DNA of 64,000 nucleotides from Watersipora subatra (Eukaryota; Bryozoa; Gymnolaemata; Cheilostomatida; Watersiporidae): contig NC_088708.1 in assembly GCF_963576615.1 (NCBI RefSeq), positions 67,124,672 to 67,188,671 on the forward strand, in the 5' to 3' direction. The position numbers and the translations under genes are program-made. The first letter of the stretch is position 1. Every line of letters begins with the position of its first letter. The notes under the pieces were generated by a model, which saw nothing but the letters and a program-made list of their open reading frames with translations, did no database searches and was not told the DNA's origin. This document shows positions 1 through 63,405 of this stretch, one piece after another.

Positions 1-949
1 GGAAGGAAAATATTATATGTTTATATCTCTCCACTGCAATAGGAGAAATGCAATCTTGGCCAATATTAGAAGTAAAATGCACTGATATTATTAGAATAAC
101 CAATATTATTAATATAGTAATAATAGAAAACTAATGCACAATTTTGTTTACATTTCAAAAGGTCATAGCTAACAATATCAAGAAGTTGTGATATTTATGT
201 AGTTTTTTAGAAAATCTATCTAATAAAACTATTTACAAAAAATAATAACAGTAACATATTACCCATCATCGATGTTGTTAGTGTGACTATTACACTTCAA
301 TAGTCTTCCAAACTTATAATTAAATATTGTAATAATCTCAAAAGAATCGTTAGATAAAATATCATCGTCATTTCCTTTACTTTCACTGCTTTGGACATCA
401 GTTAGAATACCAAAGTACTCAAAAGTGTCCAAAATGTCAGTTACTTTGAAATCGGCAAAAAAGAAACATTTATATTTCAGTACTTATACGTTAATAACAA
501 AAACCTTCGACAATTCGACAATGCTATAGACTGGTGAAATGTGCACATTATTTTTTCGTGAAATACGCACGACTTGATGGCTCTATTCTTTGTCGCTCAG
601 CGTTTCATTTGCCGGTCTTAATTTTGATAAAAGTAAGGCTTGGCAAGTTTTAATAACGATTTTTGGCCAAATTAATCTGTCTATTTGTGTATAATCCAAT
701 CAGATGGGTAAGTTTCAAGATATTGTCGACAATTTACAAAGACTCGGTAACATATTTAAATAGGTTTTTATGTGTTTTTTGTATCGTTATTATACTTAAA
801 CCACTCCATTGAAAATTGGTTAAATTTGTTGATGAGATTTCAGTACAAGGGTTTGTGACGGTATTGATGAATAATTTTCGTGAGTTGTGTGCACGCGCAT
901 TTATCATAAAACTCTCAACCAATCGCTCCGCTCGTGTTTGGTCGTGGGA
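1..949 (-). mobile_element. Helentron-like non-autonomous element, cut by the window start
   Basis: Reverse-strand copy of a roughly 1.3-kb element that recurs at 40609-41903 and 46661-47945. Its 5' terminus (TCCCACGACC, reading the minus strand from 949) abuts the 3' tail of the LINE at 950. It encodes nothing recognisable. The 3' end lies outside the window. Assignment to the Helitron2/Helentron group rests on the terminal layout seen in the 40.6-kb copy (5'-terminal motif repeated inverted near the 3' end); boundaries are by eye. Confidence 0.45.
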
Positions 950-2190
950 AAATGTTTCCTCACCCCGGTTAACCCATGTGGGTGGTAATTTCTGCTCTAA
1001 CTCGGGTCTCCTACCAGAGACCTGGGAGTTTGAACACTCGCCTCAAGATCTTAGCTGTTCCCAATAGCGCACCTTTCTGCAACTCACTTGAGCTTATTGC
1101 TGTCGGTATCTGGGTGTAGTGAAAATGCCACGAATCGAGATGACAGCAGGTTTTGCAGTGGTTTAAACTGAACTGATCGTATTCTGGTAGATATGACTGT
1201 TTATTTTACTAATAGCCAGAATAGACCGTGAAGTCTACAAAAGTACATGTCACAATAAAACTACAGTGTAAAGCATAATAACGTAAAACAAACATTATAT
1301 ACTTGACTTGAAAGTCACATTAAAACAAAAGCATTCAATTTAGTCAAATAAAGTACATATAAGTATATAATAAAACTGACCTTTTGCCTCCGTAGGCCTG
1401 CTAGTCTCTCACTTATAATTTTGTCACTTATTGATAATAAAACTTTCTGTGCTGGGTTACATGCTGCCCACAGCACTAAAACTGCTACTGTGTGGCTAAT
1501 CTGAAACTGGCGTATATATATGTAAAGGCAAATGTGGGTCAGCAAACAATGTCACCATTAAGGAAACCAGTGGAAGTCGTTTAGAAAAACCGTTCCCAGT
1601 ACACGCAGCATGAGTATGTTTTAATAAGCAGTGTAATTATGGCATAACTGCAATTTTAATGTGTTTCGGCAAGATTAATGAGTTTCATGCATGGCCCAGC
1701 GGTGGCAGCGAACTATAGACATTACAATGAACTGTAATTTGCGAGTACATAGGCAATGGTACTAGCTGACTTTACACTTCACACTGGGCAAGCCACATTT
1801 TGCCACAGGTGTGCCAAAGTGTTGCACAAGCAAGGCACGCTACAGATGTTATTGCACTCAGTACCCCAATGACTACTGGAATTACAGTTGTTCTTACATC
1901 CCAGCATTTTTCAATCTCTTCTGCAAGAGGGTGATATTTCTTTACTTTTTCTTTTTCTTTGCTGGCTATATTTTAATCATTGGGTACTTTTATATCTGTT
2001 ATAGTAGCCCTCTTGTTCTCCTTGCCCACCACCACTATATCTGGTTGGTTTGCTAAGACATACTTGTCAGTCCAGATGTAGAAGTCCCAGAGGATCTTAG
2101 CACGGTAATTTTCATTGATCTTACCAGGAGCTTCCCACCAGTGTTGTGGTTTATTAAGGCCATACTCATCAAATAAACTACTGTACTTGA
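950..2190 (-). mobile_element. 3' fragment of a restriction-like-endonuclease LINE, interrupted by a solo LTR
   Basis: The minus strand at 2190-1789 encodes the C-terminal part of a non-LTR retrotransposon, closely similar to the plus-strand copy at 58.1-58.8 kb. Visible are the KPQHWWEAPG stretch and the endonuclease core QPDIVVVGKENKRATITDI, matching the PD-X12-14-D motif of R2/NeSL-type LINEs. The frame stops just after VPND, where Tyr has become TAA. The coding match breaks at 1784 and resumes at 1114, with a 669-bp solo LTR between. The 3' tail (1010-950) contains the palindromes CCCACATGGG and GGTTAACC. A dead 5'-truncated copy. Confidence 0.7.
1115..1783. mobile_element. Solo LTR inserted in the LINE fragment
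   Basis: A 669-bp segment starting TGTAGTG and ending TTCACA, flanked on both sides by the 5-bp direct repeat CTGGG (1110-1114 and 1784-1788). Comparison with the uninterrupted LINE at 58.7 kb shows that exactly this segment plus one copy of the pentamer is extra. TG...CA ends with a 5-bp target duplication and no coding content fit a solo LTR. Family (Gypsy or BEL) and orientation are unknown. Confidence 0.65.
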
Positions 2191-2347
2191 TCGTTATATA
2201 TATATGCTTGTTGTTTATATACAGTATATATATAAAAAATTGGTCTAACACAGCGGTTAACCCATATGGGTAGTAGTTTCTGCTCTAATAGGGCCGTACC
2301 TTTTACAGAGAGCTCAACCAAACAGAAGTAAGGGAGCATATACTTAT

Positions 2348-2393
2348 GCTACAGACAGTACTGTTTCGGCTATTGAAGCCTCATCAGTGCAGC
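2348..2393 (-). ncRNA. Type I hammerhead ribozyme, complete core
   Basis: On the minus strand every conserved part is present in order. Stem I is GCUGCA (2393-2388) paired with UGUAGC (2353-2348), one G-U pair. The CUGAUGA box is 2387-2381. Stem II is GGCU/AGCC (2380-2377 with 2371-2368) with a five-base loop. The GAA box is 2367-2365. Stem III is ACAG/CUGU (2364-2361 with 2358-2355) with a two-base loop. Cleavage is expected after C2354, in the canonical GUC triplet. The very short palindromic stem III resembles those of newt and Penelope hammerheads, which are thought to cut best as dimers. All catalytic positions agree with the family consensus. Confidence 0.87.
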
Positions 2394-2608
2394 TCAGAGC
2401 AGTCAAGGTGGACAAATCTCATTGCCAATGAAAGTTGACTTCCTGTCATGAAACAACTAAGTTGTCTCACAGACTTTAAGAATTTCGATGTACTGACACC
2501 AGAGTGATCAAATCACAAACCTGATGAGCTATGCACGAAGGCTAATAGCGCCGCCCCTCCCACAGAGTGCTCAACCAAACTGAAGTAAGGGAGCATAATT
2601 ATAATCAT

Positions 2609-2656
2609 GCTACAGACAGTATACTGTTACCGCTATTGAAGCCTCATCAATGCAGC
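2609..2656 (-). ncRNA. Decayed hammerhead ribozyme in the second repeat unit
   Basis: Counterpart of the intact motif 261 bp away. Stem I and the loop of stem II are kept. The CUGAUGA box has become UUGAUGA, the closing pair of stem II is G-G, and the GAA box reads GUA. Stem III has grown to the 12-base palindrome ACAGUAUACUGU. The changed core positions are ones needed for catalysis, so it should be inactive. Confidence 0.65.
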
Positions 2657-2799
2657 TCAGAGCAGGCAAGGAAAACATATCCCATTGCCAATAAAAGTTG
2701 ACTTTCGGCCATGAAACAACTCAGTTGCCTCACAGACTAAAAGAAAGTCGATGTGGTCAAAAGTCAAAACAAAACATTAATGTATAATAAACAGGTTGG

Positions 2800-3561: not shown

Positions 3562-6500
3562 TCAATTGTGACACTTTTGCAGTAAAAGAATGGAGTGGAG
3601 TAGGAGGCTTATTAGATAGCTAGCTCCGCCCATGTAGTAAGTTGCATCATAGTCTCCTGTGATGTCATACAGCAGCCCTGTCAGTAAATAAAATGATATT
3701 TTATTAAGTCCTAGTTACTTGCTCAGTAATAAGACATAATTATTAACTGATTTCTCTATGAACCATGCAGCCATAACAATGGCGATATACCTGCTATTGT
3801 AGGCCCCACTATGGCAGCGACTCCACGAGTTAGGCAGATTAATCCAATTCCATTGTTTAGTTTTCTCAAGCCCACAAGATCACAGATGATCACAGGAGCT
3901 AATGAGTGGAAACCCACTATAAGAAACAAAGAGAGGTATACGTAATCTTTTACGCTATGCTTAATATGATCACTATAATAGCTGTCTGTCGTAGCTATGA
4001 ATTTTAGATTAATATCTCTGATACAAACATTGTTGATTTAAAATAATTAGTTGTTTTTTTTTCAAACTAGCAAAACAATGCATTTGTTTTTGATTTTGAG
4101 ACTTTTTATACAAACTTGTTGCTATAATGAATGGTTGACTGACCTGCAGTGAAAGAAATGCCAGTAGTAGCAATAAATATAGTACTGATTGTGTGGCACT
4201 GAGACATTGCAATCATAGAGACTCCAGCTACCAGAAGACACCCGTTATTCCACATCAAAGCACTGATTTTGGGTATTGCCACTATTACTATTCCAGGAAG
4301 GATTCGTCCCACTATACCCATAGCTCCTACATACATGTAATAACTACATTTCAATAATCTTCATATACTATACAAAATAAAACCACAACAGCAGGTATTG
4401 GTACTATTTGATAAGGGCACAGACAGTAGCCACTACTTCGGTGCACAAAATGATGGCGTATTAGTTAACCTTCTCACACTCTTCAGACTCATTGTTTTAA
4501 CATGTTAGTCAGTTTTATTAGAATACTGAATTGAAAACGACAATACTTTTGTTACTCAAAAGCCGATAGCACGGTGAAAGGAAGCGAAAATTATAGTGAA
4601 TTATGGGAAGGTATCGATGACAAGATAAGGTAAGGCAATTCCAAAACAAAAAAACAAAGCCATGTATAAACAAAATTCAAAACCTATTATTGACAACACT
4701 CCCCCTTAGTTGTAAAATTTTAATCAGGGAATACAAATTGATAACAATGTAAGATCCTGCTAACTAACCTACCTAACCGGCCAAACGTCTAACGACCTAC
4801 GCTACACCTAGCATATCTCTGAGTTTCTCGAATCGATCACGACAAAGTGGTTTTGTGAAAATGTCAGCCACCATATGATCAGTGTAGCAGTGCTTGGTTC
4901 AAACGTGGTTGTTCATGATTTCCTGGCATATGTAGTGATACTTAGTGTCTATATGTTTGGAGCGTTTGCTTGTTTTGGTTTGCAATGTTTATAGCAGACA
5001 GATTGTCGATGTTGAGCTCGATTGGTTGTATTGGTGTGCTGTTGATGCACAGGTAAAGTTGGTGTAGCCAGGCGGCTCCTTTCGTTGCTTCATGAGTTAC
5101 AATGTACTCGGCCTCTACCGTTGATAAGGCAACAACATTTTGCTGTTTGCTGATCCAACTAATGGGGCCACCACAATGCATAAACAGTACACCTGAAGTA
5201 GAGTGCCGACCCTCACTTTCTCCCCACTAGCATCAGAGTAGGCGATTGGCTGCTGATCTGCTTTCTTGTAACAGATGCCAAGATCTGGCGTTGCCTTGAG
5301 GTAGCGTAGAACTCTTTTCACCGCTGTAAGGTGCGTTTCAGTTGGGGCAGTGTTAAATTTAGACAACACTCCCACTGCGTATTGTATGTCTGGCCTGGTG
5401 AAAGTGGCAGCATAGAGAAGACTACCGATTATGGATTGATACAAGGCTTGGTTTACAGGTTTACTTCTATTGTTCTTCACTAGCTTGACGTCTGCAGCCA
5501 TGGGGTAGCGGTAGTTTTGCAGTCCGCCATATTGTATTTGTGCAGAATTTGTCGAATGTATTGTTTTTGAAGCAGTTTCAGAGAACTCGGAATAAATTCT
5601 GCTTGAATGCCCAAGCAGAACTTAAGCTTTCCCAAGTCCTTCATCTGAAATCGAGCGCTGAGGGCCAATTTAATTTTATCTAGGACTAACTGATTGTCAC
5701 AGATTAGAACTAAGTCATCTACATACACTTCTATAATGGCCTGGATATTATCATACTGGCGTATATACACACGTTGATCTGTGCTTGACTGGGTGAAGAA
5801 TGTGGATTTAAGAGACTGGTCCAACACTTGGTTCCAGCAGCATGAAGCTTGTTTGAGTCCGTATAGAGACAGTTGCAAATTACACACAAGGTTTTCTTTA
5901 TCAGGGAGGACAAATTCTTCAGGTTGTCTCATTTAAATTTGTATGTATGTATGTAATTTGGATGTAACAACATCCATTTGGTGAACAATCATGTCACGGC
6001 TTACTCCATATGAGAGCAGAGAACAAAGAGATGATCGCTGAATGACTGGAGCAAAAGTCTCATCGTAGTCTACTCCGTGCTGATGAGCAAAACCCTTCGC
6101 GACGAGTCTAGCTTTGTATTTTGTAATGTTGCCATCAGTATCGTACTTCACTTTAAAGACCCATCTGCAACCAATGGCTTGTCGATTTAGCGATAACTCT
6201 ACCAGCGTCCACGTTTTATTCTTCATTTGAGCCTCATACTCTCTCTGGGCCGATTTCAACCACTCATCAGACTGAGGGCTAGACTGGGCTTCCTTGAAGG
6301 ATTTTGGTTCAATCAGATCGGTTACATAGTTGGCGGCATGTCCCTTACCCGTGTAATCATGTATACCATATCTCTTGGGCTCGGTAGAATTGCGAGCACT
6401 TCAACGCAATGCTAATTCGAGTTGGTGATCGTGACTTTGGTTATCTACTGGTTCGATCTCGACTTGACCGCTGGAGTTGTGTGCTCTCACACAATCAATG

Positions 6501-9500
6501 TGTTTCTGTGGAAGGACCAGTTTTGATTCATCAAAAATAACATCTCTGCTCACAACAACCTTCTGGTTTACAGGGTCGTATAAGCAATATGCTTTGGATC
6601 TGAGGCTATATCCGACATGGATCATCGTTTCAGCTTTATCATCCAGTTTCTGCCTCAATTCATCTGGAACATGGGCGTAAGTGATGCAGCCAAAGGTATG
6701 AAGTTGGTTTAAATCTGGTTTATCACCATTCCACATTTCGTATGGAGTTGTGCACTCTTTGTGAGCATTGTTCGGAACTCGGTTGCATACATATACGGCT
6801 GTACTAATGGATTCGGTCCAAAACGACTTTGGCAGCTCCGATTCAATGATCATTGCTCGAGCGGCTTCACATGCCGTCCGTTTGAATCATTCTGCTAAGT
6901 CATTTTGTTGGGGTGAGTAACGAGTTGTCAGCTGATGCTGAATACTATGAGAACGAAGGTGTTGTTCAAGCTGTTTGGATATATATTCTCCACCTCCGTC
7001 AGTACGTAACGTTCCGATTGTTTGGCCAGTTTGATTTGTAACTAAGGCTTCATAATCTTGAAAAACTGAAAACACATCAGATTTATCTCGAATGAAATAC
7101 ACATGCACAAACCTACTGTAATCATCAATAAAGGTGACAAAATATTTACTGTTACCAATAGACTGATTTTGCATGGGGCCGCAAACCTCACTATGTACAA
7201 GCTCTAATACCCTCTTAGATTTGATATCACCGGTAGACTTGAACGGTTTACGCGCTATTTTACCCTTGATACATGACTCGCATTGACCTACTGATACGTT
7301 GGATAAATCGGCACCAGTTACTAATGATTCTCGGTTCATCTGATGGATAGTTGACTAGTTTAAATGAGCTAGGTGTTGATGCCATAAAGTGTTACATGAT
7401 GCCAGACTCGTGCGATGATTTGATGATTCAAGATCTACATGTATATAGTATAGTTTACCAACACGTGTGCCCATAGCGTGTGTTTGACCAATATTATTCT
7501 TCACCTAGGCTCTGCTATGGCCGAATTGAATAATCATACCTATATCTGTTGTAGACTTGACCGAGATTAAATTTTGCTTCAGATCAGGCATGTGAAGTAC
7601 GTCATAGAGGGCGGCTTTTCTAGTCAAACGCTTATTTACTCGCACTGTGATGTGTACATTACCGATAGCTATACCATCAACGGCGCGTTCATCAGCAATC
7701 ATCACCCTTTTCGGTTCGTTTAGTAGTGTATAGGACTTGAAGGACGACTTGTTTAGTGTCACGTAACGCGTTGCTCCTGAGTTCATTAGCCGTTCTTGTA
7801 CAAGATCACTACTGTAGCAAGCTGGGAAAGCAGATTCATCACTGTGATGGTTGTTATCAACTTCTGCTACATACTTTGCTCTGTGTGAGCATTGTGGGAC
7901 GCGTCCACAACTCATTCCCCGTCGACCATAACTCATTCTAGATTTCGGACAGTCTCGGATGATGCTGAGTAGAGTTACAGTTATAACATTCACGTTTGGT
8001 GTATTCTCTGTTAGCGGAGAGAACAGTGGCAGAACTCGCTGAGTGTTTGACGTTACTTGAGACAGCTGTCTTGTCAGGTGCTCTTTGTTCACCATGCTTT
8101 TGTTCTTCATTCAATAACGCGTTTTGGACAAATTCGAAAGTGAGGCCTTCACCTCGAGCTTTTAGCGCTGTTACCACTGTGCTGTAACTGTCGGGCAAGC
8201 TGTCAAAAAGAGTTATGACCTGATCCTCCTCGGAGACCGGAGCTCTGATAGCAGCTAATTTGTCAGTGATGTTTTTCATGTGTTTTAGATGGGTTTCTAT
8301 CGATGTATCCTATGACATCACCGAACGAAAATAACGGTTTTTTAAGAAATAGACGATTAGCCAGCGAGTCACGCCCCAAAATGTGATTGTAATCTGTCCT
8401 AGGCTGCTTTGAGAGTTTTGCATTCGGAAACTTGATATAGCACTTCATCACTTACCGATAGAATAATGTTACTGAGGGCTTTAGACTACTTAGATTTATA
8501 CTCTGCTTTGACAGGGGCTTCAGCTGTGTTTGTTGGAACAGCGATACTTATATCTGTATAGCCATAAAGCTTTTTAGCTATGAGAAAATGCTTCATCTTT
8601 AATTTTCACGTTGTATAATTTGTTGTGTCCAGCTTAGATACAGTCCCTCTTTCTTCCATGATGGTAGGTTGGCTGATATTAATTTAAGAAGAGTGTCCTG
8701 GGCCCATAACCTATTAGAATACTGAATTGAAAGCGACAATACTTTTATTACTCAAAAGCCAATAGCACAGTGAAGGGAAGCGAACATTATAGTGAATTAT
8801 GAGAAGGTATCAATGACAAGATCAGGTAAGGCAATTCCAAAACAAAACAAAGCCATGTATAAACAAAATTCAAAAACTATTATTGACAATAAGTCTTTCC
8901 TTACTGAGTGTAAAAAGCATGTTAGTCAGTCTTTTCTGGCACATTATACAAACATTAGCGAATCTTCCCTCACTCAGTATTGTAATTGTAGAAATGTGTT
9001 TATACATTTGTTGATAAACAAACCAACTCTAATAGTATGAAAGGTTGCAGCGAAAATGAGACGCTTATGCTCCACACATATTTATATTATTTAACTTCGT
9101 ACATATTTATAAGCATATTAAGCTAACTTAAGTATATAACTGAATTAACCTTGAATCCTGCAATTTAGATACAATATTTATGGTATTATAAATTTGGCAT
9201 TAAAACCATATTTGAATATTATGCAATTTTGGTATAAATTACTGTCTGACAAAGAAACAAGTATTTGTCATGTTATTCTGATAAATAAGGCAAAATATGT
9301 ATTTGCGCTGTTATGAAAGATCAGGCAGTTATGTGTACTTGTTATAAAAGCTGACACTTACCCATATACGATACCAGCAGTGCTGCTTCTCTTTCACCAA
9401 TACCCAGTCTTTTAGCCCTGTCTGCTGTGTACATTGGATGTACATAATAGCCCACAATTCCAAAAAGGTTGCCAATGCATAATATTATCATTGACTTGTT

Positions 9501-12500
9501 TTGAAGTATCTCTATGTCTATGACATCAGCTAGAATATTTGCTAAAGGTTTAGGACAGAAACTGAGACACTGTAATCTCTTTCTGGGTTCCTGAAAATCA
9601 TAAACAAAGATTTCATTACTAAAACTTTACTTTAACATTTTACGAAACAGTACAGCAATTCTAGAGTTTGTACATCTACTTGCTGAATATCTTTTTACCT
9701 CTATTTGTGATGGTAAACTAGTTGATGACTTTACCTCCACTTCTGTTGGTAAACTTACTAATGATCCAGTGTTTGAAACAGGATATCTGTAACATAAATA
9801 ATAACCAGCAATGCATTATATATCACTTGTTTATGCTATACTGACCAGCTGAGTGACCTAATGGCTTACAAACTAACTAACTGTACCAGCCACATTTGAT
9901 ACCTGTTATTTTGTCTATTGTCAAGTTTCAAGAACTCAAAGTTGTCTTCTTCATCCTCATCTTTTCTCTTTCCGTTATCATCCAACTCAATTAATTTGAC
10001 AGTTTCAGGTTTTGGAATTGCGTTTCGTTTAGCTGAGAGAGGTCTGATTAATGCTGAGAATACACAGCCCTGCAGCAGTAAACCAGCTAAAATGAAGAGA
10101 GAGTTGTCTCATCTTGTTGGTTTCCATCAATGCTCAGGCTTATGTGTAGTATGTGAGAATACAAGTTTTTATTCCTGTTACTTTTGACTGATTGCTTGAG
10201 CACAGTCATTAGAATACTAATTTCCATTTACTAAAATGGCTTCACATAAAAATCTCATGGTAGGAATATTCAACCCAATATTCTAATTAAAGCCTGCTTA
10301 GCAGGTGCTTTCTTATTTTACAACTTTCATAAATTCTGCTTTAGCAACAATTGAACAGAGCAAGTTGGACAGTTGAAATTAGCTGTGTGGCTACCGGCTG
10401 CTGTCTGCTACAGCTGTAGCAAGCTTCAACTATTGTTAATGCATATAAGTCAAGCTTCTAACATCAGCTCAAATGAGGTTTTGCAAGACTAATACCCAAC
10501 GATTACCCAGTATGAAATGGGTGCCTCTCCAGCCATATGAGGCAAGCAGAAAGTCAGCGAAAGGTGCTACTCCCATCATTCCAAGTCCACCTCCGCACTG
10601 AGCAATTCCATTTGCCAAAGCCCTTCTCTTATCAAAGTAATGACCAACGGAAGTGATAGCTGGTAGGTACATCATACCAAAACCAAGACCTGCCAAAGAC
10701 AAGAGTTAATGACTACTAGAGAGCTTCTGTGGTCTAATAAACTGTGTGTTACTTTTAAAATGATGCTTCTAGAACATTGCCATTACAGAAACATTATGAA
10801 ATCCTTTCTAAAATGTTGTACGTCAACTATTTTTGATAGTTTCCATATTTTAATGAAAGCTTAAAAGTGTTAGAATTGAACAGAGTTTTATACTGAGTTC
10901 CGACAGCTAAATTATTTAGGTCTAGTTTTAAACTTTAAACGTTTTTACAGGTTTGAAACTCACATGCCATATGTTTGAAACTCACATGCCATATGTTTGA
11001 AACTCACATGCCATATGTTTGAAACTCACATGCCATATGTTTGAAACTCACAACCATGCCATATGCTTCTGCTAACTTTTCTATTTCTTTTTTCAAGTGA
11101 AAGCAATACATTACATTCAATTTGGTGACTGACATTGAAACAGGGTCAAAAGGTCAATCCTTTTTTTATGGGTAGTACATTACTGACTGCTCTACATTCT
11201 CTCTGTATATTAGATGCTTTAAGAAGTCCTCACCTCCTAGTATACCGTATACAATCTGAAACACAGCAACATTTGGTGAGAAAGAGCTGATGATAAAGGA
11301 AGCTGCTGCTGTCAGGCTGCCAATAAGTCCCATGGCTCGGCAGCCCCACTTGTTTATAAGAGCAGAAACAAAAGGGCCTGAAATATGTAGATATATTCAA
11401 ACATACACGTACATCATGGGCTGGATCATACAGCTAAATTGACAATCTCTCTGCCTCTGGTAAATAATATTATCATATTTACTGCCAGTCTAATTTTTCA
11501 CCTCTGCTAGTTTATACCTTCCTACTCTGACTTTGTTTACAACAGCAAACAGGTGCTCACTTTAGAATAGTGACAATCTTAGCAAGTGACATATGGCATC
11601 CTGGTGACCTTCAAAGAGAAGCAGTTTGTTTATATATGCTTTCTAAGTGAAAGTAGGCCAACATACCATTTATTTCTAAACTGAAAGAGGTACGGACATT
11701 TTTTACCTTCCCAGCTATATAGTAGTAGATAGTATAAGTTCTGCTCTAAGATGCTATAACTAAAGTATGCAGTTATTTATAGACCATTTACAGTTTCAAT
11801 AAGCACCATTTATACACTCTGACTCTGTTGTGGTTATTTACAGTTATTTATAGAAGTTAATGTTGAGGATAACCTAAGGTACCACATCATACAACACATC
11901 CTCTTACTGACAGTGCTACATGCATCATTGTAACAGCACAGGAACTCACTTTATACCAAAAAACTGTTTTCAAACACAAGCTAACTTGTTCTACTAACGT
12001 ATCTAAATTATTCCTGAAGTCTCACAGATAAAAGATAATTGTCATACTTTTCTACAGCAATCAAATGTATTTCTTGCGCAATGCTTTTCATTATTTTATT
12101 TTAGACGATATACTGTTGCCCGGAGTATAATTTACTGTTGTTTAATGTTGACATACAAAAATATCAAGTTTCAGCTAGTTAAGGAGACAAAAATACAATA
12201 TCGAAATACATTCAAATGTACAAACCCGTGTAAGTGCTATAGAAGTGAGGCTAAAGTTTTGGTCAGTTAGTCAATTCACTATAATAGTAATCTATATGTA
12301 TTAGTTATGGTTTCTTACCGGCAACCTTCAGTCAGCTTGAAAAAGCTATAAAGTTCAATCAATGAAGTTTAAATTGTATTTTTTAAATTATAATAGGCTA
12401 GGAATGTGCTGCCATATCTAGTTTACAGGCATCTTCAAGAAAGGAAGCTATTAGCATTAGGGCAAGGTATCAAGAAATATAATAGTGAGGAACTTACCAA

Positions 12501-13734
12501 TTATTTGCAGGATTCCAACCAGCAACGAGTTAGCGAAAACTACAGGTGCCACCCCTGACTTGAATGCAATGGTATAGTCTTCTATATACAGGGAGAAAGT
12601 CTGAGATATACCCAAAACCAAAAAGTTCAGGAAGCAGCTTGAAAAGACAACTACCCATCCCCACCCACCGTCTGGTGGCTCAAGAATCCTGTTTTCACAG
12701 GCAACTAAAACATGCAGAAACAGCTTTACATTTCTAACTGACAGCGCTGTTGATGAATAAGGATCACGCATAATGGTTTGCTCAGTTTGCTATATTCTGA
12801 TTTTTGATTAGTCAACGTTTAGCTGGTTAATCATGAGACATTTTAATGTTGAAATAATTTGATTTGTTTCAGAAAGGAACATGAAAAACAATTTTTCAGT
12901 TGCAAAGCTAAGATCTCCGCTGATACAAACAACAGGTTAATTATTCTATGCAATACAGAATATACTCCTTGTATATGTTCATAAGTGAATATCAGTCATC
13001 TGAACCAATCTTGTAAATATGACTATTAGTATTTCAGATACTAATCCATATAGTTACAACAAGGGAGAGTTTAAAACTAGAGAAGTCCTTTGAGAGGTCT
13101 TCAACAAATGACTTTCTAGTTCCTCTACTCACTCTGCCATTCCAATGCTATACCTACCTATGTGTACACTACTGCCTTTTGGGTAAAGTTAATCAATTGA
13201 CGCATGGCGAGGGCAAGAAAAACATCGTGTTTCACATCGCAAGACAAAAAGTTGTATTACAGAGTCATTGTAACCCGAGGGTACACCGTTAAATTAGAAA
13301 AAGGCAATTTTTAATACCATGCAATCCAAAACAGATATACAGTATATGGTAAAAGCTATGGGAAGGATAAGAATGTCTTAGCGTTGTGGTTATGTGAGCT
13401 CTTTAGCAGACTTGTGAATTTAATGTAGTGACTTCAAAACCAGTACAAAGGTTGTTTTTCATTGCTATAACTTTATCTCTTTAACTTGGTGAGCCAATGG
13501 CAGACAAACCCTGAGATTTATATATATATATATATATAGATACAATGCATACCAACATACACCAGATAGGAGTATTTACACGTATGTTGTAAATTGAAAA
13601 TTTTTTGCTGTCTTCATACCTTCATTTGCTGATAAAGGTTCTTCAGTATTGAACTTGGAGAATGACCCGTTTGGCACTAGAGTGTCTTTATTTAAATTTT
13701 CTGTATCAAGGGTTTGAGATGCTCTCCTGTCCAT
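3562..13734 (-). CDS. Monocarboxylate-transporter-like protein (SLC16 family), gene A
   Basis: Plasma-membrane carrier of the major facilitator superfamily, predicted 12 membrane segments. Coding exons, 5' to 3': 13734-13620, 12704-12498, 11377-11234, 10689-10507, 10086-9903, 9786-9699, 9590-9362, 4326-4144, 3916-3791, 3677-3562. All junctions are GT-AG with matching phases, giving 524 aa ending in TGA. The SLC16 signature DGGWGW is at residues 50-55 (TM1) and the second signature GHYFDKRRALANG at about 171-183 (TM5). The acidic cytoplasmic loop between TM6 and TM7 is encoded by exons 5-7. By gap-free eye alignment to MCT1, Lys38 is Gln73, Asp302 is Gly387 and Arg306 is kept as Arg391. Intron 7 is over 5 kb because a copia element sits in it, sense to the gene. 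Substrate unknown; possibly an orphan MCT. Confidence 0.87.
4516..4695 (-). repeat. 3' LTR of the copia element
   Basis: The 180-bp copy of the 5' LTR, about ten substitutions and one 3-bp gap apart. It is preceded on the minus strand by the purine-rich tract AAGGGGGAGTG that would prime second-strand synthesis. Confidence 0.8.
4942..6259 (-). pseudogene. Copia reverse transcriptase and RNase H, broken
   Basis: RT starts near 6259, with the copia hallmarks GCRWVFKVKYD and KARLVAKGF. It continues in a new frame with SLYGLKQA and the catalytic YVDD (about 5730). The connection domain contains YQSIIGSLLYAATFTRPDI. RNase H ends with STVEAEYI and a C-terminal helix near 4950. At least three frame breaks (about 5935, 5490 and 5170) divide it. 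Confidence 0.85.
6401..7339 (-). pseudogene. Copia integrase region, broken
   Basis: The N-terminal part holds a pre-integrase zinc-finger remnant (CESCIKGK) and the catalytic core with TFIDDYSRF, RTDGGGEYIS and YSPQQN. A stop at 6887 falls where the family has GVAER. The downstream piece (6853-6401) carries FWTESISTAVYVCNRVP and FGCITYAHVP, the usual C-terminal half of copia integrases. It is inactive because of the stop and frame change. Confidence 0.8.
7505..8451 (-). pseudogene. Copia gag and protease region, broken
   Basis: Gag fragments run from 8451 to about 7940, with a zinc-knuckle start CYNCNSTQHH near 7985 that is lost to a frameshift. Downstream in a second frame is the protease region, where the active-site motif DSGA reads NSGA (near 7790), so the catalytic aspartate is gone. 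The pieces lie in overlapping different frames, showing at least one indel. Confidence 0.75.
8698..8711 (-). promoter_or_regulatory. Copia primer binding site for the anticodon arm of initiator tRNA-Met
   Basis: The minus strand reads GGTTATGGGCCCAG immediately after the 5' LTR. This is the complement of the CUGGGCCCAUAACC anticodon arm of eukaryotic initiator tRNA-Met, the half-tRNA priming mode known for Drosophila copia. Fourteen matching bases next to the LTR make chance unlikely. Confidence 0.85.
8712..8888 (-). repeat. 5' LTR of the copia element
   Basis: The 177-bp partner of 4516-4695. On the minus strand it starts TGTCAATAATAG and ends AGTATTCTAATA. The end is not the usual CA, so a boundary error of a few bases is possible. 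Confidence 0.8.
10951..11050. repeat. 22-bp minisatellite, about 4.5 copies, intron 3 of gene A
   Basis: Tandem units of GTTTGAAACTCACATGCCAT plus AT begin at 10951, 10973, 10995, 11017 and 11039. The other gene copies have only a single related stretch here, so it expanded after duplication. Confidence 0.9.
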
Positions 13735-20636: not shown

Positions 20637-23600
20637 TCAAGTTCGAAACTTTTGCAGCAAAAGAATGGAGTGGAATAAGAGGCTTGTTAAATAGCTAGCT
20701 CCGCCCATGTAGTAAGTTGCATCATAGTTTCCTGTGATGTCATACAGCAGCCCTGTCATTAAATAAAATGATACTTTATTAGGTTCTAGATAGTTTCTCA
20801 GTAATAAGACATAATTATGAACTAATTTTTCTATTAATTATGCAACTGTAAAAAATAGTGGTATACCTGCTATTGTAGGCCCCACTATGGCAGCGACTCC
20901 ACGAGTTAAACAGATCAATCCAATTCCGTTGTTTAGTTTTCTCAAGCCCACAAGATCACAGATGATCACCGGAACTAATGAGTGGAAACCCACTATAAAA
21001 CACACGTATACATGTACGTAATCTTCTACGCTACGTTTAACATGATCAGTATAATAACTGCCTGTAGTAGTTATTACTGTCATAGAAAGTTATTACATTA
21101 CACTCATCATAACAACAGATGAGAATGAAATATAAATGCTTTCAGCATGTACATGAGTGGATATCTAAATAACTGAAGACAAAAGTTAGATACTAAATTT
21201 TAGATTAATTTCTCTGGTACAAACATTATTGATACAAAATACTTAATTGTTTTTTGTTTTTACACCAGCAAAATAATACATTTGCTTTTGACTTGGAGAC
21301 TTTAATACAAACTTTTTACAAAATAGATGGTTGACTGACCTGCAGTGGAAGAAATGCCAGTAGCAGCAATCAATATAGTATTAATTGTGTGGCACTGAGA
21401 CATGGCAATCAAGGACACTCCAGCTACCAGAAGACACCCGTTATTCCACATCAAAGCACTGATTTTGGGTATTGCCACTATTATTATTCCAGGAAGGATT
21501 CGTCCCACTATACCCATAGCTCCTACATAATTACTATATTTCAATAATCATAATAAAAATAGAAACACAACCGCAAGTATTGATACTATTTGACAAGAAC
21601 AAAAGAGAACAAGCCACTGTGTTGGTACACAATAAGATGGCATATTAGTTAACCTTCTTGTAATTTTCATGAAAACATGCTAGTCAGTCTCTCCGTATTT
21701 ATTGTATTGACATGTTTGTCAAACTTCTCTGACTGGGTGTGAAAGCATGGTCTTCTTTTGCCTAGTGTGTATAAACTCTTAGTGACTCTTCCCTCAACCA
21801 GTACAGTAATACGTTAGTCAGCCTTCCTCTGATTAGTTTAATGGCATGTCAGTTATTTATCTTGTAACCATTGAAATGTCATGTTAGTCAGTCTACCCAT
21901 ACTTATTTTAATGGCATGGCTGTCAGTTTTTTCCTTAACTGGTTTCATGGCATGTTAGTCAGCTTACAGCAAAAAACAGTCAGATTAGCTGTAGCCTGAA
22001 ATTATTTACTGTAAGAAATAAATAAGCCTTCAAACACGCTCATTACAGTGGTATGATTCAAACAACAGTTAGTTTGCCAAAATGAAAGATGGCTGCAGTG
22101 TTTTACTGCCATTAAACCGTTTACAAAATATCAACCAGTACCAGTGATCATAATCTTTCAGTTGATTGATATGTAAGTAAAATTAGCTATTACAAACCTC
22201 TATCAATATTATCCTTACAGGTTCTCAAAATCTCATTCATTTGTTGGTAAACAAGTCAACTCCAGTAGTATGAAAGGTTGCAGCATTAATCATGAAACCC
22301 GCATGCTCCATAACTTTGTACATACAGTAGAAGCTTTTACAATGTAAGTTATTTGTTCAAGGAATGTTTAGGTTATGGCGATGTAACGCTGTACGAAGAG
22401 TAACATACATGTAAATAGTTTATTCCATTTCAAGATTTTCCCAAAATCACTCTTTTGATTCTTCAGAATAGAAAAAGCTAATCATAACTTGTTAATTTAA
22501 TGACTGGACAATAACTGCAGTAATGTTGGCTTGTTTTGACCTTTCACCTCTTTTCATACAACTTACACTTACTCTCTTCATATCAAATACCCATGATTTA
22601 TAGTCTATGATTTATAGTCTATGATTTATAGTCTATGATTTATAGTCTATGATTTATAGTCTATGATTTATAGTCTATGATTTATAGTCTATGATTTATA
22701 GTCTATGATTTATAGTCTATGATTTATAGTCTATGATTTATAGTCTATGATTTATAGTCTATGATTTATAGTCTATGATTTATAGTCTATGATTTATAGT
22801 CTATGATTTATAGTCTATGATTTATAGTCTATGATTTATAGTCTATGATTTATAGTCTATGATTTATAGTCTATGATTTATAGTCTATGATTTATAGTCT
22901 ATGATTTATAGTCTATGATTTATAGTCTATGATTAAGGCAACTTTAACGTTAGATTAACAGAGTGCATACCTTTGATGCCAAAGTAGATGTTTAAATAGT
23001 GATATTTTGACTTTTTTTCTCTACAGCAAGGTGTACAGTGCAAAAAAGGAAAAAAAATTGTATATGTTTAAAATAAAGTAAACAAAATTTAATAAACACT
23101 TCAAATACCCTTATACAATGTACATTGTTTTGTCTCCCAAATGCAGCAAAACAAAAAAATTATACTTTTACTGCTAACTATAGAACTCTTGTTATTCAAA
23201 TTGAATTTGAAAACTTACACCGACTTGATAACACATTATATAAAACCTCTCAAATAACGTGCTGCAAAAGATTCACACAAATTTCTTATGTGCCATGAAT
23301 TTTATGTAAAAGGAGGTGTGCCTTACATGTGTACTGTATTTATAAGTATGTTAGGCTACACTAACTTAAATATTCAATACTAGTCAGCTGTGCTAACCTT
23401 GGAGCCTGCATATAGATGTATATAGTATTGATGATATGATAAATCTAGTATTACAACCATATTTACATGTGAATATTAGGAATTTTTGGTATAAATCTAT
23501 CATCATGTCGGATGATAGTGACAAGGATTTATTACATTTATTACAAGCAGAGCTTAGGTTCTACCTTAGCTCTGTTTGGTGAGCATTAGTGTTTACGCCT

Positions 23601-26600: not shown

Positions 26601-29280
26601 AACAGTTTGGTGACTAAATCATAGAATAAGGTTCAAAAGGTCAATCTTTTTCCTACGAGTAGTCAATCACTGACTGGTCTACATTCTCTCTGCATATTAA
26701 ATGCTTTAAGAAGTCCTCACCTCCTAGTATACCGTAAACAATCTGAAACACTGCAACATTTGGTGAGAAAGAGCTGATGATAAAGGAGGCTGCTGCTATC
26801 AGGCTGCCAATAATTCCCATGAGTCGGCATCCCCACTTGTTTATAAGCGCAGAAACAAAAGGACCTGAAATATGTATATTCAAACATACATGTACATCAT
26901 AGGCTTTAGCATACCACTAAAGTGGTAATGCCACGTCCTCTTGTAAATAATATCATAATAATATCATATGCCAGCCTGATTTGTCACCTCTGCTGGTTTA
27001 TTCCCTTCTATTCTCTCTTGTAAACAATATTATCTTGTTTACTGCCAGCCTAATTTGTCACCCCTGCTAGTTTGTACCCTTCTATTATCTCTTGTAAGCA
27101 ACATTATCTTGTTTACTGCCAGCCTACTCTGTCCCCCTGCTAGTTTATACCCTTTTATTTTGACTGTTTGCAACAGCAAACAGGTGCTCGCTTTAGTATA
27201 GTGACAACCTCAGCAAGTCATATATGGCATCCTGGTGGCCTTTAAAGAGAAGAAGTTTTTCATATATAATACAAAGCGAAATTCTGCCAACATGTTTTTT
27301 AGTTTTAAACAGAAAGGGTACATTTTCTAAATTTACAGCTATGTAGAATTAGCAAGTATAAGGTCTGCTCTAAAATACTATAATTAAAGTCTGCAGATAT
27401 TTATACACAGCTTACATAAAGTTCTAACAAGGATCATTCGTACAATATGGCCTAGTTGTGGTTATTCACAGTTATTCACAAGAGTTACTGTAGAGGATAG
27501 CCTAAGGTACTACATCATGCAACACATCTTCTTACCGACACTGCTATATGCGCCATTGTAACAGCACAAGAATTCACTTTATGCAAAAACTGCTTTCAGA
27601 CATAAGCTAACTTGTTATACCAACATATCTAAATTATTCCTGAAGTTTCAGAAATAAAAGAGAATTGTCATACTTGTCTACTGTAATCAGATGTCTTGCT
27701 TGCGCATTGCTTTTCATTATTTTATTTTAGATGATAGATTGTTGCCTGGAGTGTATCTCAATGTTATAATAGACTATGAATGTGCTGCCATATCTAGTTT
27801 ACAGGCATCTTCAAGAAAGGAAGCTATTAGCATTAGGGCAAGATATGTGAAAATGTATTGGTTTGAAACTTACCAATTATTTGCAGGATTCCAACCAGCA
27901 CCGAGTTAGCGAGGACTACAGGTGCCACCCCTGACTTGAATGCAATGGTATAGTCTTCTATATACAGGGCGAAAGTCTGAGATATACCCAAAATCAAAAA
28001 GTTCAGGAAGCAGCTTGAAAAGACAACTACCCATCCCCACCCACCGTCTGGCGGCTCAAGAATCCCATTTTCTTTGACAACTAAAACATGCAGAACTTTA
28101 TCGAATCTGTCACAATTTACTGCGTTTGTCATGAAGGACTCACGATCAACAGCAGTGGAAGTGCTGCTAGTTAGAATAGCACTCTGGCAAGTCAGGAACA
28201 GTTCTATATTTCTAACTTACAGATCTGGTGTTGTATAAAGATCACACGTGGTGGTCGGTGCATTTGCTAAATTTGATATATTTTAATCCTTGATAAGTCA
28301 ATGTTTAGGTAGCCATTAGAGCTTTTAATCTTTTAGCAATTCGGTTTGTTCCAGAGAGGAACATGAAAAACACTATTGTAGTTGCACAAACACGAAAAAC
28401 AATTTCCCTATAGCACAGCTAAGGTCTTCGCTGATACAAGCAACAGTTTAATACTCTATAGTGTACAGAATATACTACTTGTATATATATGATCATAAGT
28501 GAATATCAGTCATCTGATCAAATACAGTTTAATTGAGCCTTAAAAACCTGCTACTCTTCGTGTTTAAACTAAGTGTGGGTTATTCAGCACTAGAATAAAA
28601 TGATGGTCATATTTACTACTTGTAAATATGACCATCAGTATTTCAGAGCCTGATCCACACAGTTATCCTAAGTTTAAAACTAGAGAAGGCCTTTGTGAGG
28701 TCTTCAACAAATAGCTTTTCAGTTCCTCTTCTCTATCTGGCATCCTATTGATATATCTACTTGTACACTACTGCTTTTTGACAAAAATAGTAAATTGGCG
28801 ATACATGAAAACTAGCTTTGCTTTTTTATAATTCTACTTGACCTGACACAAATAGTAGCTAACCAATCAACAATCATGAGATCATAAACTTCTAGACCAT
28901 TAATTTTTTTAAGTGTCAAGATTATTTTCTACATAATACTTTTTTAAAATGTTCTGATTATAAGTGGATGTCCAGCAATTCATCACAGATGTTTTAGCAT
29001 TGAGGAGTGGTAAAAATAGCAGATTTATGGTGGGATGACACGATGAAAACTGCTACATGCATATAAGCTTATACAATGCCTAGCCAGCACTACACAAACT
29101 AAATGAAATACATGTTATATTGGCAGGAAAAATACTTTATTAATAATTCAATGTTGTCTTTTTACCTTCATTTGCTGATGAAGATTCTTCAGTAGTGAAC
29201 TTGGAGAATGATCTGTTTGGAACTGGAGTATCTCCATTTAAACTTTCTGTATCAAAGGTTTGAGATACTCTCTTGGCCAT
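20637..29280 (-). CDS. Monocarboxylate-transporter-like protein (SLC16 family), gene B
   Basis: Second intact member of the array, 523 aa. Exons: 29280-29166, 28080-27874, 26864-26721, 26225-26043, 24594-24414, 24297-24210, 24101-23873, 21522-21340, 20992-20867, 20752-20637 (TGA). Lengths and phases match gene A except exon 5, which is one codon shorter. DGGWGW is in exon 2 and GHYFNKRRALANG in exon 4 (Asp to Asn against the other copies). The C-terminus ends KFRT. The start ATG is the first after a plausible acceptor and is shared by all copies. Intron 4 holds a long-TIR transposon and intron 7 a 14-bp satellite. Same inferred role as gene A: a 12-segment carrier of unknown monocarboxylate-like substrate. 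No inactivating change seen. Confidence 0.87.
21655..21975. repeat. Diverged interspersed units (TTAGTCAGTC family), intron 7 of gene B
   Basis: Loosely repeated words of the ATGTTAGTCAGTC type, related to the regular 35-bp array at 33.3-33.6 kb and to blocks in intron 7 of genes D and E. An old, degenerated minisatellite carried with each duplicate. Confidence 0.5.
22592..22935. repeat. 14-bp satellite, about 24.5 identical copies, intron 7 of gene B
   Basis: Unit ATGATTTATAGTCT repeats without a visible change over 344 bp. Perfect identity implies very recent expansion or an assembly-collapsed longer array. Absent from the other gene copies. Confidence 0.95.
25136..26006. mobile_element. 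Long-TIR non-autonomous DNA transposon, intron 4 of gene B
   Basis: 871 bp with about 125-bp inverted termini beginning TTGACTTGCAA and ending TTGCAAGTCAA. The arms differ at only a few positions. The flanks CTTTCAAGG and CCTTTAAGG could be an imperfect 9-bp target duplication. Gene A lacks the insert at the same intron position. No transposase is encoded. A Mutator-like origin is possible. It has a relative at 42289-43180 with its middle reversed. Confidence 0.7.
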
Positions 29281-37800: not shown

Positions 37801-40800
37801 GGTTTTGAAATTGATTTTCGTTTAGCTGAGAGAGGTCTGATTAATGCTGAGAATACACAGCCCTGCAGCAGTAAACCAGCTAAAATGAAAAGAGAGTTGT
37901 CTCATCTTGTTGGTTTTCATCAATGCTCAGGCTTACACGTACTATATGAAAATACAAGCATTTATTCCTGTTACTTTTGAGTGGCTGATTTGGCTTATTT
38001 TTTAGAATATTAAATTTAATTTACTAAAAAGGCTTCACATAAAAACTTCGTGTCAGGATTATTCAACCAAGTATTTTAACTCAAGCCTGCTTAGCAAGTG
38101 CCTTTAACATATAAGCGCTATGCAGTGTAGTTGTCAAATTGCATCTGTTATGGTGTTAATAAAAAGAGCAAAATGAAGGAGAGGGAATGAGATAATGGAA
38201 GAACAAATGAAGGAAAGAAAAGGGGCGAAAGAGGGAAGAAGCGGAATAAAGAAGGAAAAGGAGGTAAAAAAGAGAGGGTCAAAGGTCAAGAGAGGGTCAA
38301 AGGAAAAAGAAATAAAAGAGGTTAATGAGGGAGAGGGATTGAATGAGCGAAAAGTTGGCAAAAGAAGGAGGGAAAAAGAGAGAGGATAAAAGGAAAAGGT
38401 TTAAAATAAATAAAAAGTAAAGGAAGAAAAGAATATGACAAAAGGAGAAGGTGTGAAGAAGGCGTCACGAAGTTTCGTACATACATTTTAAACACTTATT
38501 TTCCTTTTTCAAACGTGTGATACGCTTAGAGATTCTCATGTTTGCATAACTTCTGCATCATCAACAATTGAATAAGTTGGACAACATAAATTAGCTGTGT
38601 GACTAAATGCTTCATGTCTTCTGCTTACTACAGCCTTTAGCTTGCTCTAATTACTGTCATGGTGACAAAGTCATGCTTCTAACACCTCCTGTAGATTTTT
38701 CCAAACTCATGCCTGAAGATTACCCAGTATAAAATGGGTGCCTCTCCAGCCATATGTGGCAAGGAGAAAATCAGCGAAAGGTGCTATCCCCATCACTCCA
38801 AGTCCACCTCCGCACTGAGCAATTCCATTTGCCAAAGCCCTCCTCTTATCAAAGTAATGACCAACGGAAGTGATAGCTGGTAGGTACATCATGCCAAAAC
38901 CAAAGCCTATGAAAGCAACAGTGGTTTCTTGTTAAAGAGCTAACATTAAAAATATCTTTTTAGAGCATGGAAATTACCTTAATGTATAAAACATATGACA
39001 TTCTTACATTACTATGTCATTTATTTTTGAATAGCTTTAACATTTTAATAAATGTTTGTGAGTGTTACAACGGTGCATATTTTATATTGAGTTCAAGCAG
39101 CTAAATTATTTGAGTCTAGTTTCAAACTTTAAAATTTTTTAAAGGCTTTAAACTTATAACCATGTCAATTGTTTTTCATAAATGTCAATTTTTTCTGTAA
39201 TGCTTGCACCCAAAACAATCCTTGTACATGTGAAATGCAAGCAGCAATTTAGTGACTAAATCACTAAATAAGGGTCAAAAAGCCAATATTTTTTATGAGT
39301 AGTCAATCACTAACTGGTCTACATTCTCTCTGCACATTAGATGCTTTAAGAAGTCCTCACCTCCCAGTATACCGTATACAATCTGAAACAGTGCAACATT
39401 TGGTGAGAAAGAGCTGATGATGAAGGAGGCAGCTGCTATCAGGCTGCCAATAATTCCAATGACTCGGCAGCCCCACTTGTTTATTAGAGCAGAAACAAAA
39501 GGACCTGAAACATTTGTACATCATAGAACTTTGCATTCAACTTAGGTGGCAATGCCACTTATAGATTTTGCAACAAGTATATTTTACTTCTATTTAATGT
39601 TGAAATAATTATATGAATATGAGTGGACAAAAATGTAATTTTATAAATACATTCGAATGTACAAAGTTTTGTAAGCGCTATAAAAGTGGTGCTTAAAATG
39701 GGGTTAGTTCAATCAACTCCCTATAGTAATCAGTAGTTCAGTCAACTCGCTTTAGTAATCAGTAGTTCAGTCAGCTCACTATAGTAATCAGTAGTTCAGT
39801 CAACTCACTATAGTAATCAGTAGTTCAGTCAGCTCACTATAGTAATCAGTAGTTCAGTCAGCTCACTATAGTAATCAGTAGTTCAATCAACTCACTATAG
39901 TAATCAGTAGTTCAGTCAACTCGCTTTAGTAATCAGTAGTTCAGTCAACTCACTATAGTAATCAGTAGTTCAGTCAACTCACAATAGTAATCAGTAGGTC
40001 AGTTAACTCACTATAATAATCAGTAGTTCAGTCAACTCACTGTATAGTAGTAGTCAGTAGTTCAGTCAACTCACTATAGTACTCAGTTTTTAGTACTGTA
40101 ACTCTGTTCTTTTCTCCCCTGAAACATCTAGCCAACTCAAAGCAATCAATTGCTGTTTAGTTCTTTATAGTATTTCATAAGTTGTATTAATTTCTTCTAA
40201 TGTGTATCAGTTGTACATTAGCAGAGGCTATGAATGTGCTGCTATCTCCAGTTTACAGGCATCTTCAAGAAAGGAAGCTATTAGCATTAGAACAATGTAT
40301 TTGGAAATGATGTGATAGTCAGGAACTTACCAATTATTTGCAGGATGCCAACCAGCATCGAGTTAGCAAGAATTACAGGAGCCACCCCTGACTTGAATGC
40401 AATGGTATAGTCTTTTATATACAGGGCGAAGGTCTGGGACATACCGAAAACCAATAAGTTCAGGAAGCAGCTTGAAAAGACAACCACCCACCCCCATCCA
40501 CCATCTGGTGGCATGAGAATCCCCTTTTCGCTGACAACTAAAACATGCAAAAATTTATTGAATTGGCTGTGACTAAAGATTCATGATCATAGATCTGAAA
40601 GTGCTGGTTCCACAATCAAACACGAGTGAAGCAATTGTTTGGGAGCTTTATAATAAATGCATATGCGCACACAATTCCTGAAAAATTATCCATCAACGGA
40701 CGTAACCAAACCCTTGTACAAAAATCCCATCAAAAAATTTAACCATTTTTGTCTAGAGCCGTATAAGTATAATAATGATACAGAACACATATAAATCTTT

Positions 40801-58040: not shown

Positions 58041-58872
58041 ACGCAAGTCAGTTTCAGAAAAAAAAATCTTTGAGGTGAGTACACAAACTCCCAGGCTTTT
58101 GGTAGGAGGCTCGAGCCTTGGCCTTAACGGCCAATACAGAGTCACTAATCATGGCAGCCCAGGAGCAAGTGCTCCCAACAAGGCAACTACAAACAAAAAT
58201 CTATCCCACTAGAGATGATCCTAGATGCAGACTGTGCAAAGATGCACCTGAGACCATCCATCACATCATCAGTGGATGCAAGCAGCTAGCAGGAAATGCA
58301 TACACTGAGCGGCATAATCATGTCGCAGGTATTGCGTATAGAAGTCTATGTGATGAGTATGGCCTTAATAAACCACAACACTAGTGAGAAGCTCCTGGTA
58401 AGGTCAATGAAAATGACCGCGCTAAGATCCTCTGGGAATTCTACATCCAGACTGACAAACATGTCCTAGCAAACCAACCAGATATAGTGGTAGTGGACAA
58501 GGAGAACAAGAGGGCTACTATAATAGATATAGCAGTACCCAATGACTATAATATAGCCAGCAAAGAAAAAGAAAAGGTAGAGAAATATCTCCCTCTTGGA
58601 AAAGAGATTGAAAAATGCTGGGATGTAAGAACAACTGTAATTCCAGTAGCCATTGGGCCATTGGGCGCAATAACACCGGTGCATAAAATGTGGTTTGCCC
58701 AGATACCGACAGCAATCAACTCAGGTGAGTTGCAGAAAAGTGCGCTATTGGGAACAGCTAAGATCTTGAGGCGAGTGCTCAAACTTCCAGGTCTCTGGTA
58801 GGAGACCCGAGTTAGAGCAGAAATTACCACCCATATGGGTTAACCGAGGTGAGGAAACAATTTTTATATATG
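58041..58872 (+). mobile_element. 3' end of an RLE-type LINE (R2/NeSL-like)
   Basis: The frame 58118-58801 encodes the C-terminus of a non-LTR retrotransposon protein. It contains a CX2CX8HX4C knuckle (CRLCKDAPETIHHIISGC), a YTERHNHV stretch, then the restriction-like endonuclease core QPDIVVVDKENKRATIID (PD-X14-D) and a VEKYLPLGKEIEKCW helix. Two Trp codons seen in the 2.1-kb copy are TAG and TGA here (58382-58387), so it is dead. The 3' UTR ends CCCATATGGGTTAACCG and CAATTTTTATATATG. A 30-bp phrase (CCAGG...GGTAGGAG...CGAG) occurs at both 58089-58115 and 58789-58812. Confidence 0.75.
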
Positions 58873-59298: not shown

Positions 59299-59678
59299 GA
59301 TACTTAGCCCGAATCCACAACAACCGAGTAAGCACTACGAGGAGCAAACCTGATCTCGGCTGCCGACCTTGCTTATAAGCATCGATTGAGCACACCGGGG
59401 TTAGCTAGCACTCGGACGGAAAAAGCACACCGGATCCGGCTGCCGACTTTGCTGTAGCATCGCTCGGACACACCGAATTGGTGAAGGCCTCGGAATAAGA
59501 AGAAATTACCGAGGCGTTATTCCCTGCTATTGGCCGACCATGCTGATGCACGGCATATATACCAATAACAGGCATACTTTCGGCTAGGAAAGAACAACGA
59601 GACGTTATTCCCTGCTACTGGCAGACCGTGCTGAGGCACGCAGTCGACCCCCAGTAAACAGGCATACTCTCAAACAAA

Positions 59679-63058: not shown

Positions 63059-63095
<37 letters not shown>

Positions 63096-63361: not shown

Positions 63362-63405
63362 TAAAAATTGTTTCCTCACCTCGGTTAACCCATATGGGTT
63401 AAAAC
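63362..63405 (-). mobile_element. LINE-type 3' tail, inverted relative to 58.8 kb
   Basis: The minus strand reads ACCCATATGGGTTAACCGAG, then GTGAGGAAACAATTTTTATA, the same tail as the LINE at 58835-58868. Only about 40 bp are recognisable. It makes an inverted repeat around the Gypsy element and TA array. Confidence 0.7.

Follow-up and report, generated by a model that had tools for sequence, protein, structure and literature searches.

The hammerhead motif on the minus strand at 2348..2393 belongs, judging by its sequence and that of its relatives, to a family of non-LTR retrozymes of the metazoan type in the bryozoan Watersipora subatra. Each 259-bp unit of this retrozyme carries one type I hammerhead, and we think it probable that the element enters (TA)n microsatellites by target-primed reverse transcription. 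How retrozyme circles return to animal genomes, and where the reverse transcriptase comes from, is a question left by those who described them (PMC7229834 and PMC7761336, represented here, like the other papers cited, by excerpts). From a single genome we obtain a precise rule for insertion, the bases at which reverse transcription is likely primed, a candidate LINE that is young and has full-length open frames, and one locus where the two elements are physically fused. Below, the window means the whole 64-kb stretch of DNA that was analysed.

The hammerhead motif and its folding

Read from 2393 to 2348, the minus strand has the letters GCUGCA-CUGAUGA-GGCUUCAAUAGCC-GAAA-CAGUACUG-UC^UGUAGC, where a stem I of 6 bp, CUGAUGA, a stem II of 4 bp with a 5-nt loop, GAAA and GUC follow one another, with an intact core and a predicted cut after C2354. 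CUGAUGA, GAAA and the NUH site stand in the correct order among three helices and the molecule is open at helix I, as in type I hammerheads. We assessed the motif by base reading, a descriptor, Rfam and folding energy. The descriptor demands CUGANGA, a stem II of at least 3 bp, GAAA, UH, a stem I of at least 5 bp and a stem III of at least 4 bp with A15.1-U16.1 among them, and it finds this single site in the 64-kb window and none in 150 simulated windows with matching nearest-neighbour make-up. The original prediction of a full minus-strand hammerhead with an invariant core and a GUC site agrees with this reading, and the motif is genuine as far as its letters can tell, cleavage being the expected activity.

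The Rfam covariance models, which the original prediction had named as a check, did not lend their support: nothing in the window attains the gathering score of any family, and with relaxed settings the best hammerhead model is Hammerhead_HH9, whose 18.5 bits (E 0.21) fall short of the 52 required. Seven units of a tandem array at another locus (L052) score 21.7-23.5 bits against the same 52, and 20 further whole loci gave no match at the gathering score, which is a criterion of detection and not a biological one. A plus-strand hammerhead near 2520 (CTGATGAG..CGAAG) was considered and rejected, as it is without GAAA and is missed by the descriptor.

Of three stems proposed at 6, 4 and 4 bp, stems I and II stand as read, but the palindromic stem III needs a loop and cannot close on itself. 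In the window monomer it can pair only A15.1-U16.1 and 2 bp round a GUAC loop. The perfect palindrome ACAGUACUGU makes self-folding at full length impossible and gives a 10-bp stem III between two units, stem III of the window hammerhead being complete in the dimer only. The energy computation gives -38.0 kcal/mol for the double hammerhead versus -22.0 for two monomer hammerheads, and the suggestion that such a stem III suits dimer action is in line with the sequence, with this energy and with a family of tandem copies. Unconstrained two-strand folds lie lower than the double hammerhead (-40.2 for the window strands, -44.6 for the consensus strands), the monomer has another fold at -16.7 versus -11.0 for the hammerhead, and the minimum-energy circle forms stems I and II with the core in other pairings. 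Because of these lower folds and the otherwise paired core, the folding computation does not prove the hammerhead.

A family of dispersed retrozymes

The 25-nt core has 2,308 matches in the 784-Mb assembly at up to 3 mismatches, with none for the reversed control. The sample that we examined consists of 73 fetched loci and the window, covering 100 core matches from the head of the list. The sampled loci are exact core matches on the first contig and the start of the second; the sample is therefore biased to young copies, and the conservation of the core among them is not used as evidence. They contain 80 copies, the shortest of 0.19 and the longest of 6.78 units, and at least five loci seem to be duplicates of others by their flanks (L036/L037, L040-L043, L074/L077). 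The unit has 259 bp and a G+C content of 46%, and the L052 array has seven cores at 259-base spacing with identical units. A short tandem unit (150-450 bp), one hammerhead in each, dispersal and a G+C content below 50%, the features of metazoan non-LTR retrozymes, were all found. Viral contigs, from which records of the window's own genome were possibly excluded, gave no match to the ribozyme pattern and none to the LINE protein described below.

It might be argued that the hammerhead look is due to chance or is a decayed relic without cleavage activity, which would fit both the scores under the Rfam threshold and the competing folds of lower energy. We consider this very improbable, given 2,308 core matches with a control of zero, a strict-descriptor match that is the only one in the window and has no counterpart in the simulated windows, and a 259-bp tandem unit such as a retrozyme should have.

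A fixed 3' end in TA repeats

If the C of CUGAUGA is taken as unit position 0, the match ends at position 46-49 in 74 of the 80 copies. At this usual 3' end the last bases are ..GUC^UGUAGCAUGAGUAUAU, which puts it 16 nt downstream of the predicted cut. The six exceptions end at 42 (three copies), 37, 100 (the window copy) and 123 (L079, where the usual end sequence recurs slightly further down). Copies of at least one unit provide the fairer test, since selection by core matches favours ends soon after the core, and 43 of these 45 end at 46-49. The rule was derived from the first 60 loci and then applied to 13 loci fetched later, where 13 of 14 copies obey it.

TA runs of at least 10 are present at the 3' end of 58 of 66 copies and of 9 of the 14 later ones, hence 67 of 80, against a background of 51 in 9,139 window 30-mers; the measured stretch takes in the last 6 bases of the element, and the background is that of the 64-kb window alone. 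On the 5' side, only 29 of 66 copies have a TA run. Over the genome, the 3' end is joined to TA repeats at 1,220 places and the inner unit-to-unit form occurs at 732 (each at up to 2 mismatches, with a control of 0). At one locus (L022), the retrozyme 3' end passes into a short tandem array whose units resemble TGTACCATGCATGTATATAACAGTACTG.

Variable 5' ends and a probable circular template

A fixed 3' end combined with ragged 5' ends is a hallmark of target-primed reverse transcription. The 5' ends of the retrozyme occur all along the unit and pile up at positions 37-49, where 15 of 80 copies begin and 4.0 would be expected. Most copies in this cluster make about one or two turns, starting at the UAUAU at which they also end. 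The remaining 5' ends are not spread quite uniformly (KS p 0.011), for which the duplicated loci are partly responsible. The fixed 3' and variable 5' ends mark target-primed reverse transcription at TA repeats, and the template was probably a circular RNA. With 16 nt between the cleavage site and the 3' end, the template must have continued across the cut, which rules out a linear monomer cut once and leaves a ligated circle or an uncut multimer.

The copies with several units (at least 440 bp) bear on the same question. Within-copy unit identity is at least 98.8% in 10 of these 16 copies and 85-97% in the other six, and identity between copies has a mean of 92.1% and a median of 94.2%. Of the 54 variant positions in those ten copies, 40 recur in every turn and 14 do not; the sixteen copies together have 66 that are common between turns and 137 that are not, the latter mostly in the six older copies, which thus lack the pattern. 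The near-identical units of young copies are consistent with several turns on one circle, and local exchange could equally have produced them. The 259-nt circle is predicted to be unusually stable (z -4.2, with 0 of 100 shuffles equally low), and at the putative priming site UAUAU the middle AUA is unpaired with a probability of 0.79-0.99, the outer U's being mostly paired.

A young LINE with an R2-like protein

The candidate partner is a LINE that is present in the window in several pieces. The 3' part of one copy lies on the plus strand at 58124..58871 and ends in CAATTTTTATATATG, its start having been set by eye against an intact frame at another locus (L116). The restriction-like endonuclease domain of its protein is at 58388..58801 (plus strand), in an open piece after an in-frame stop that is not read through. 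An older, 5'-truncated copy of the same family, which is also that of the tail fused to the retrozyme, is found on the minus strand at 1847..2186 (90% to 58336-58675); the 3' part of a LINE copy at 949..1114 (minus strand, 95%) probably belongs with it, with about 730 bp of other sequence between. At 63362..63399, a minus-strand LINE 3' tail enters a long TA-rich tract (62986-63363). The repeat at 961-1000, considered as a tRNA-derived SINE, was rejected, being LINE 3' tail.

The best named protein matches for the window piece are from W. subatra itself (83-84%), followed by fish and tunicate proteins. A single-sequence search with the C-terminal piece gave no match. The profile search led to R2 proteins (9nl3_A, E 0.0021; 9dou_A, E 0.0029), as did the fold comparison (9dou_A, E 2.4e-5; 8iby_C, E 7e-4; model mean pLDDT 77). 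The whole frame of L116 matches RVT_1 (E 7e-28), with zf-RVT under the cut-off, and its closest solved structures are those of R2 (E 4e-31), with LINE-1 next (4e-16). A reverse transcriptase followed by a C-terminal restriction-like endonuclease related to that of R2 places the LINE in the R2 superfamily. Among 150 scored copies of 7,800 candidates, 11 have an open frame of 1123 aa and 16 have one of at least 1100 aa, and most of the copies listed have one identical score, 282.9 bits, for the 137-aa end. By this single score and the 1123-aa frames, the R2-type LINE looks strikingly young.

The pattern for the LINE tail was made without TA, so that a TA context is not presupposed, and has 1,999 matches in the genome and none for its control. 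In 30 tail loci (two in the window), the next 40 bases have a TA run of at least 8 in 26 cases and of at least 10 in 17, against 1.3% and 0.7% of 9,138 window 40-mers. A set of 20 LINE 3' ends from the window and the 73 loci has such runs in 17 and 15 cases, respectively, and these TA tracts at the 3' ends mark the LINE as target specific. In 8 of the 73 fetched loci, a LINE tail lies within 35 bases of a retrozyme with TA-rich sequence between them. Facing pairs of a LINE tail and a retrozyme end were found in seven of the first 60 loci (gaps of 5-33 bases) and at L070, in both orientations, and at L015 the LINE in front of the retrozyme has an intact frame. TA-rich 3' ends are the only feature common to the retrozyme and the LINE, which makes a recognition of the retrozyme by the LINE protein putative.

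The window copy and its fusion to a LINE tail

The window copy amounts to 1.8 tandem units on the minus strand, which are 83.6% identical over 213 columns. The downstream unit 1 (2285..2541) has its 3' end at unit position 100, where 49 is usual, and the upstream unit 2 (2542..2755) is 5'-truncated at unit position 152. The hammerhead of unit 2 is degenerate (2609..2656, minus strand, located by alignment with coordinates set by eye), its core being broken by UUGAUGA (C3 to U), by GUAA for GAAA (A13 to U) and by a mismatch in stem II, and its palindrome is longer by TA. The 261-nt unit of the original prediction holds in so far as 261 bases separate the two GUC sites, but the idea of a self-cut unit of that length from the window copy alone falls away, since one of the two ribozymes is core-broken. 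Its likeness to the L052 unit, 86.7% for the copy as a whole, suggests that the copy is probably old.

Fused to this retrozyme is a LINE 3' tail (2228..2288, minus strand) that aligns over 61 columns with the LINE end at 58812-58871 (83.6% identity) and ends in a TA tract. The two share a 4-nt microhomology, TTAG (2285..2288, minus strand), between retrozyme CTATTAG and LINE GAGTTAG as aligned by eye. With as many as 3 mismatches allowed, the only occurrence of the junction in the genome is the one in the window. The idea that a whole family of retrozymes had inherited a LINE tail was therefore rejected, the more so as 74 of 80 copies end at 46-49. Target-site duplications are not readable inside TA tracts, and at the window copy a 7-nt word is the only one common to both flanks.

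For the fusion we prefer a template switch in the course of one LINE insertion, which is simpler than a later deletion because the fused piece is just the 3' end of the LINE. We nevertheless give some weight to a deletion that joined the retrozyme at TTAG to a downstream LINE of the same orientation, a scenario that is possible though somewhat doubtful and would make the fusion uninformative on mobilisation. It draws on the 8 of 73 loci with the two elements at most 35 bases apart and on a junction that is single in the genome and has a microhomology of 4 nt; beyond the greater simplicity of the template switch, nothing positive speaks against it.

Proposed mechanism and alternatives

In the mechanism that we propose, multimeric transcripts would be cleaved behind GUC, most likely where two hammerheads form a common 10-bp stem III, and the 259-nt RNA would be closed into a circle, following the pathway known from metazoans. 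Once nicked, a TA tract could anneal to the UAUAU found 12-16 nt downstream of the cleavage site and so prime reverse transcription. On a presumed circular template, the enzyme would travel less than one full turn in some copies and almost 7 in others, the range seen in the copy lengths, before the 5' end of the copy would be joined to the target, which is often TA-rich. The enzyme would most likely come from the young LINE with its R2-like reverse transcriptase and restriction-like endonuclease. For the full scheme, in which the self-cut and ligated circle is the rolling template and the TA microsatellite is nicked by the R2-type LINE protein, with up to about seven turns, we see the chances as evenly balanced.

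A linear, SINE-like RNA seems rather unlikely as the template. Read-through transcripts with a (UA)n tail from the flank would then pair with the TA target, and unequal exchange would build the arrays. Most examined copies adjoin TA runs, so linear transcripts would bear such tails, and tandem exchange could also yield identical units such as the seven cores of L052. The cluster of 5' ends at the same UAUAU (15 of 80 copies, against 4.0 expected), with lengths of about one or two turns, is unexplained by a linear template, however, the near-identity of units in 10 of 16 multi-unit copies fits the repeated copying of one circle, and metazoan retrozymes are reported to build up as circles (PMC7229834).

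Similarly, the reverse transcriptase might be supplied by a Penelope-like or another unseen retroelement, the TA targets common to the retrozyme and the LINE being coincidental. Elsewhere, Penelope-like elements bear hammerheads and form tandem copies, and the authors who described metazoan retrozymes consider both LINEs and Penelope-like elements as the enzyme source, favouring the latter (PMC7229834, PMC7761336). For W. subatra we hold this source to be improbable. The GIY-YIG search of the 784-Mb assembly, which covers only Penelope elements with a recognisable GIY-YIG domain, gave one match among 16 candidates. The frame of this sole match reads like SLX1, presumably a host gene, which makes the LINE, being abundant, young and TA-directed, the likelier partner. 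No Penelope gene attached to the hammerhead was seen in the window, and, by the GIY-YIG search, the hammerhead is not placed in the terminal repeats of an element with a Penelope reverse transcriptase and the usual GIY-YIG domain.

Other features of the window

A Copia-type LTR retrotransposon occupies 4516-8889 on the minus strand, with RVT_2 in one ORF and direct repeats at 4516-4696 and 8712-8889 (93-96%). The ORFs at 59658-60512, behind the LINE end, resemble gag with a zinc knuckle by eye and are possibly an LTR element. Four similar minus-strand ORFs with PPDGGWGWVVVFSSCFLN (12457-12789, 27833-28216, 40287-40580 and 52874-53167) look like exons of what we take to be tandemly duplicated monocarboxylate-transporter-like genes; a Pfam search with one of the four gave no match. 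One 29-bp unit forms two 13-copy arrays at 39705-40087 and 52296-52671, about 12.6 kb apart, which perhaps reflects a segmental duplication including these gene copies. At 22593-22934, there is a perfect 14-bp tandem array of 24.4 copies (100%).

Comparison with known systems

Retrozymes themselves are known; what is new here is that, for one from an animal, the insertion rule is resolved and a candidate partner can be named. A search of the available literature for hammerhead ribozymes and bryozoa gave no match. Judged by the listings, a search for retrozymes and microsatellites gave only a plant study and a curation guide, and one for hammerheads, microsatellites, retrotransposons and target priming gave only a plant review. 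If the mechanism is true, it would tell which autonomous element a metazoan retrozyme depends on and where its copying is primed, and it would show a LINE that copies a circular RNA repeatedly.

The family most resembles the metazoan non-LTR retrozymes described by Cervera and de la Pena in 2020 (PMC7229834), which are likewise built of short tandem units (about 170-400 nt, versus 259 here) that each contain a type I hammerhead, and which have a low G+C content, dimers to multimers, many dispersed copies and a weak stem III suited to dimers. The Watersipora family differs in its bryozoan host, in its fixed 3' end in TA microsatellites, in 5' ends that are variable or a whole turn away and in its candidate LINE partner. 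For the retrozymes of that paper, the excerpt only calls the target duplications larger than the 4 bp of plant retrozymes, and the word microsatellite is absent from the main text.

The SINE-like SMalpha elements of schistosomes, compared by description, are likewise non-autonomous and carry a type I hammerhead, and the excerpts of PMC8490949 and PMC6155905 make no mention of TA targeting. The hammerheads of Penelope-like elements and Terminons (PMC6155905, PMC7761336) are similar in that stem III is very short or absent and dimers are expected, whereas no GIY-YIG Penelope element was found in the W. subatra genome. On the side of the enzyme, LINEs with a restriction-like endonuclease often target microsatellites (PMC4640811). 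Some HERO families and Togen, which inserts into (TG)n, share with the W. subatra LINE a C-terminal endonuclease and insertion into microsatellites, as well as the kinship of the reverse transcriptase, for which R2 is the closest among solved structures, but the target of the W. subatra LINE is TA-rich.
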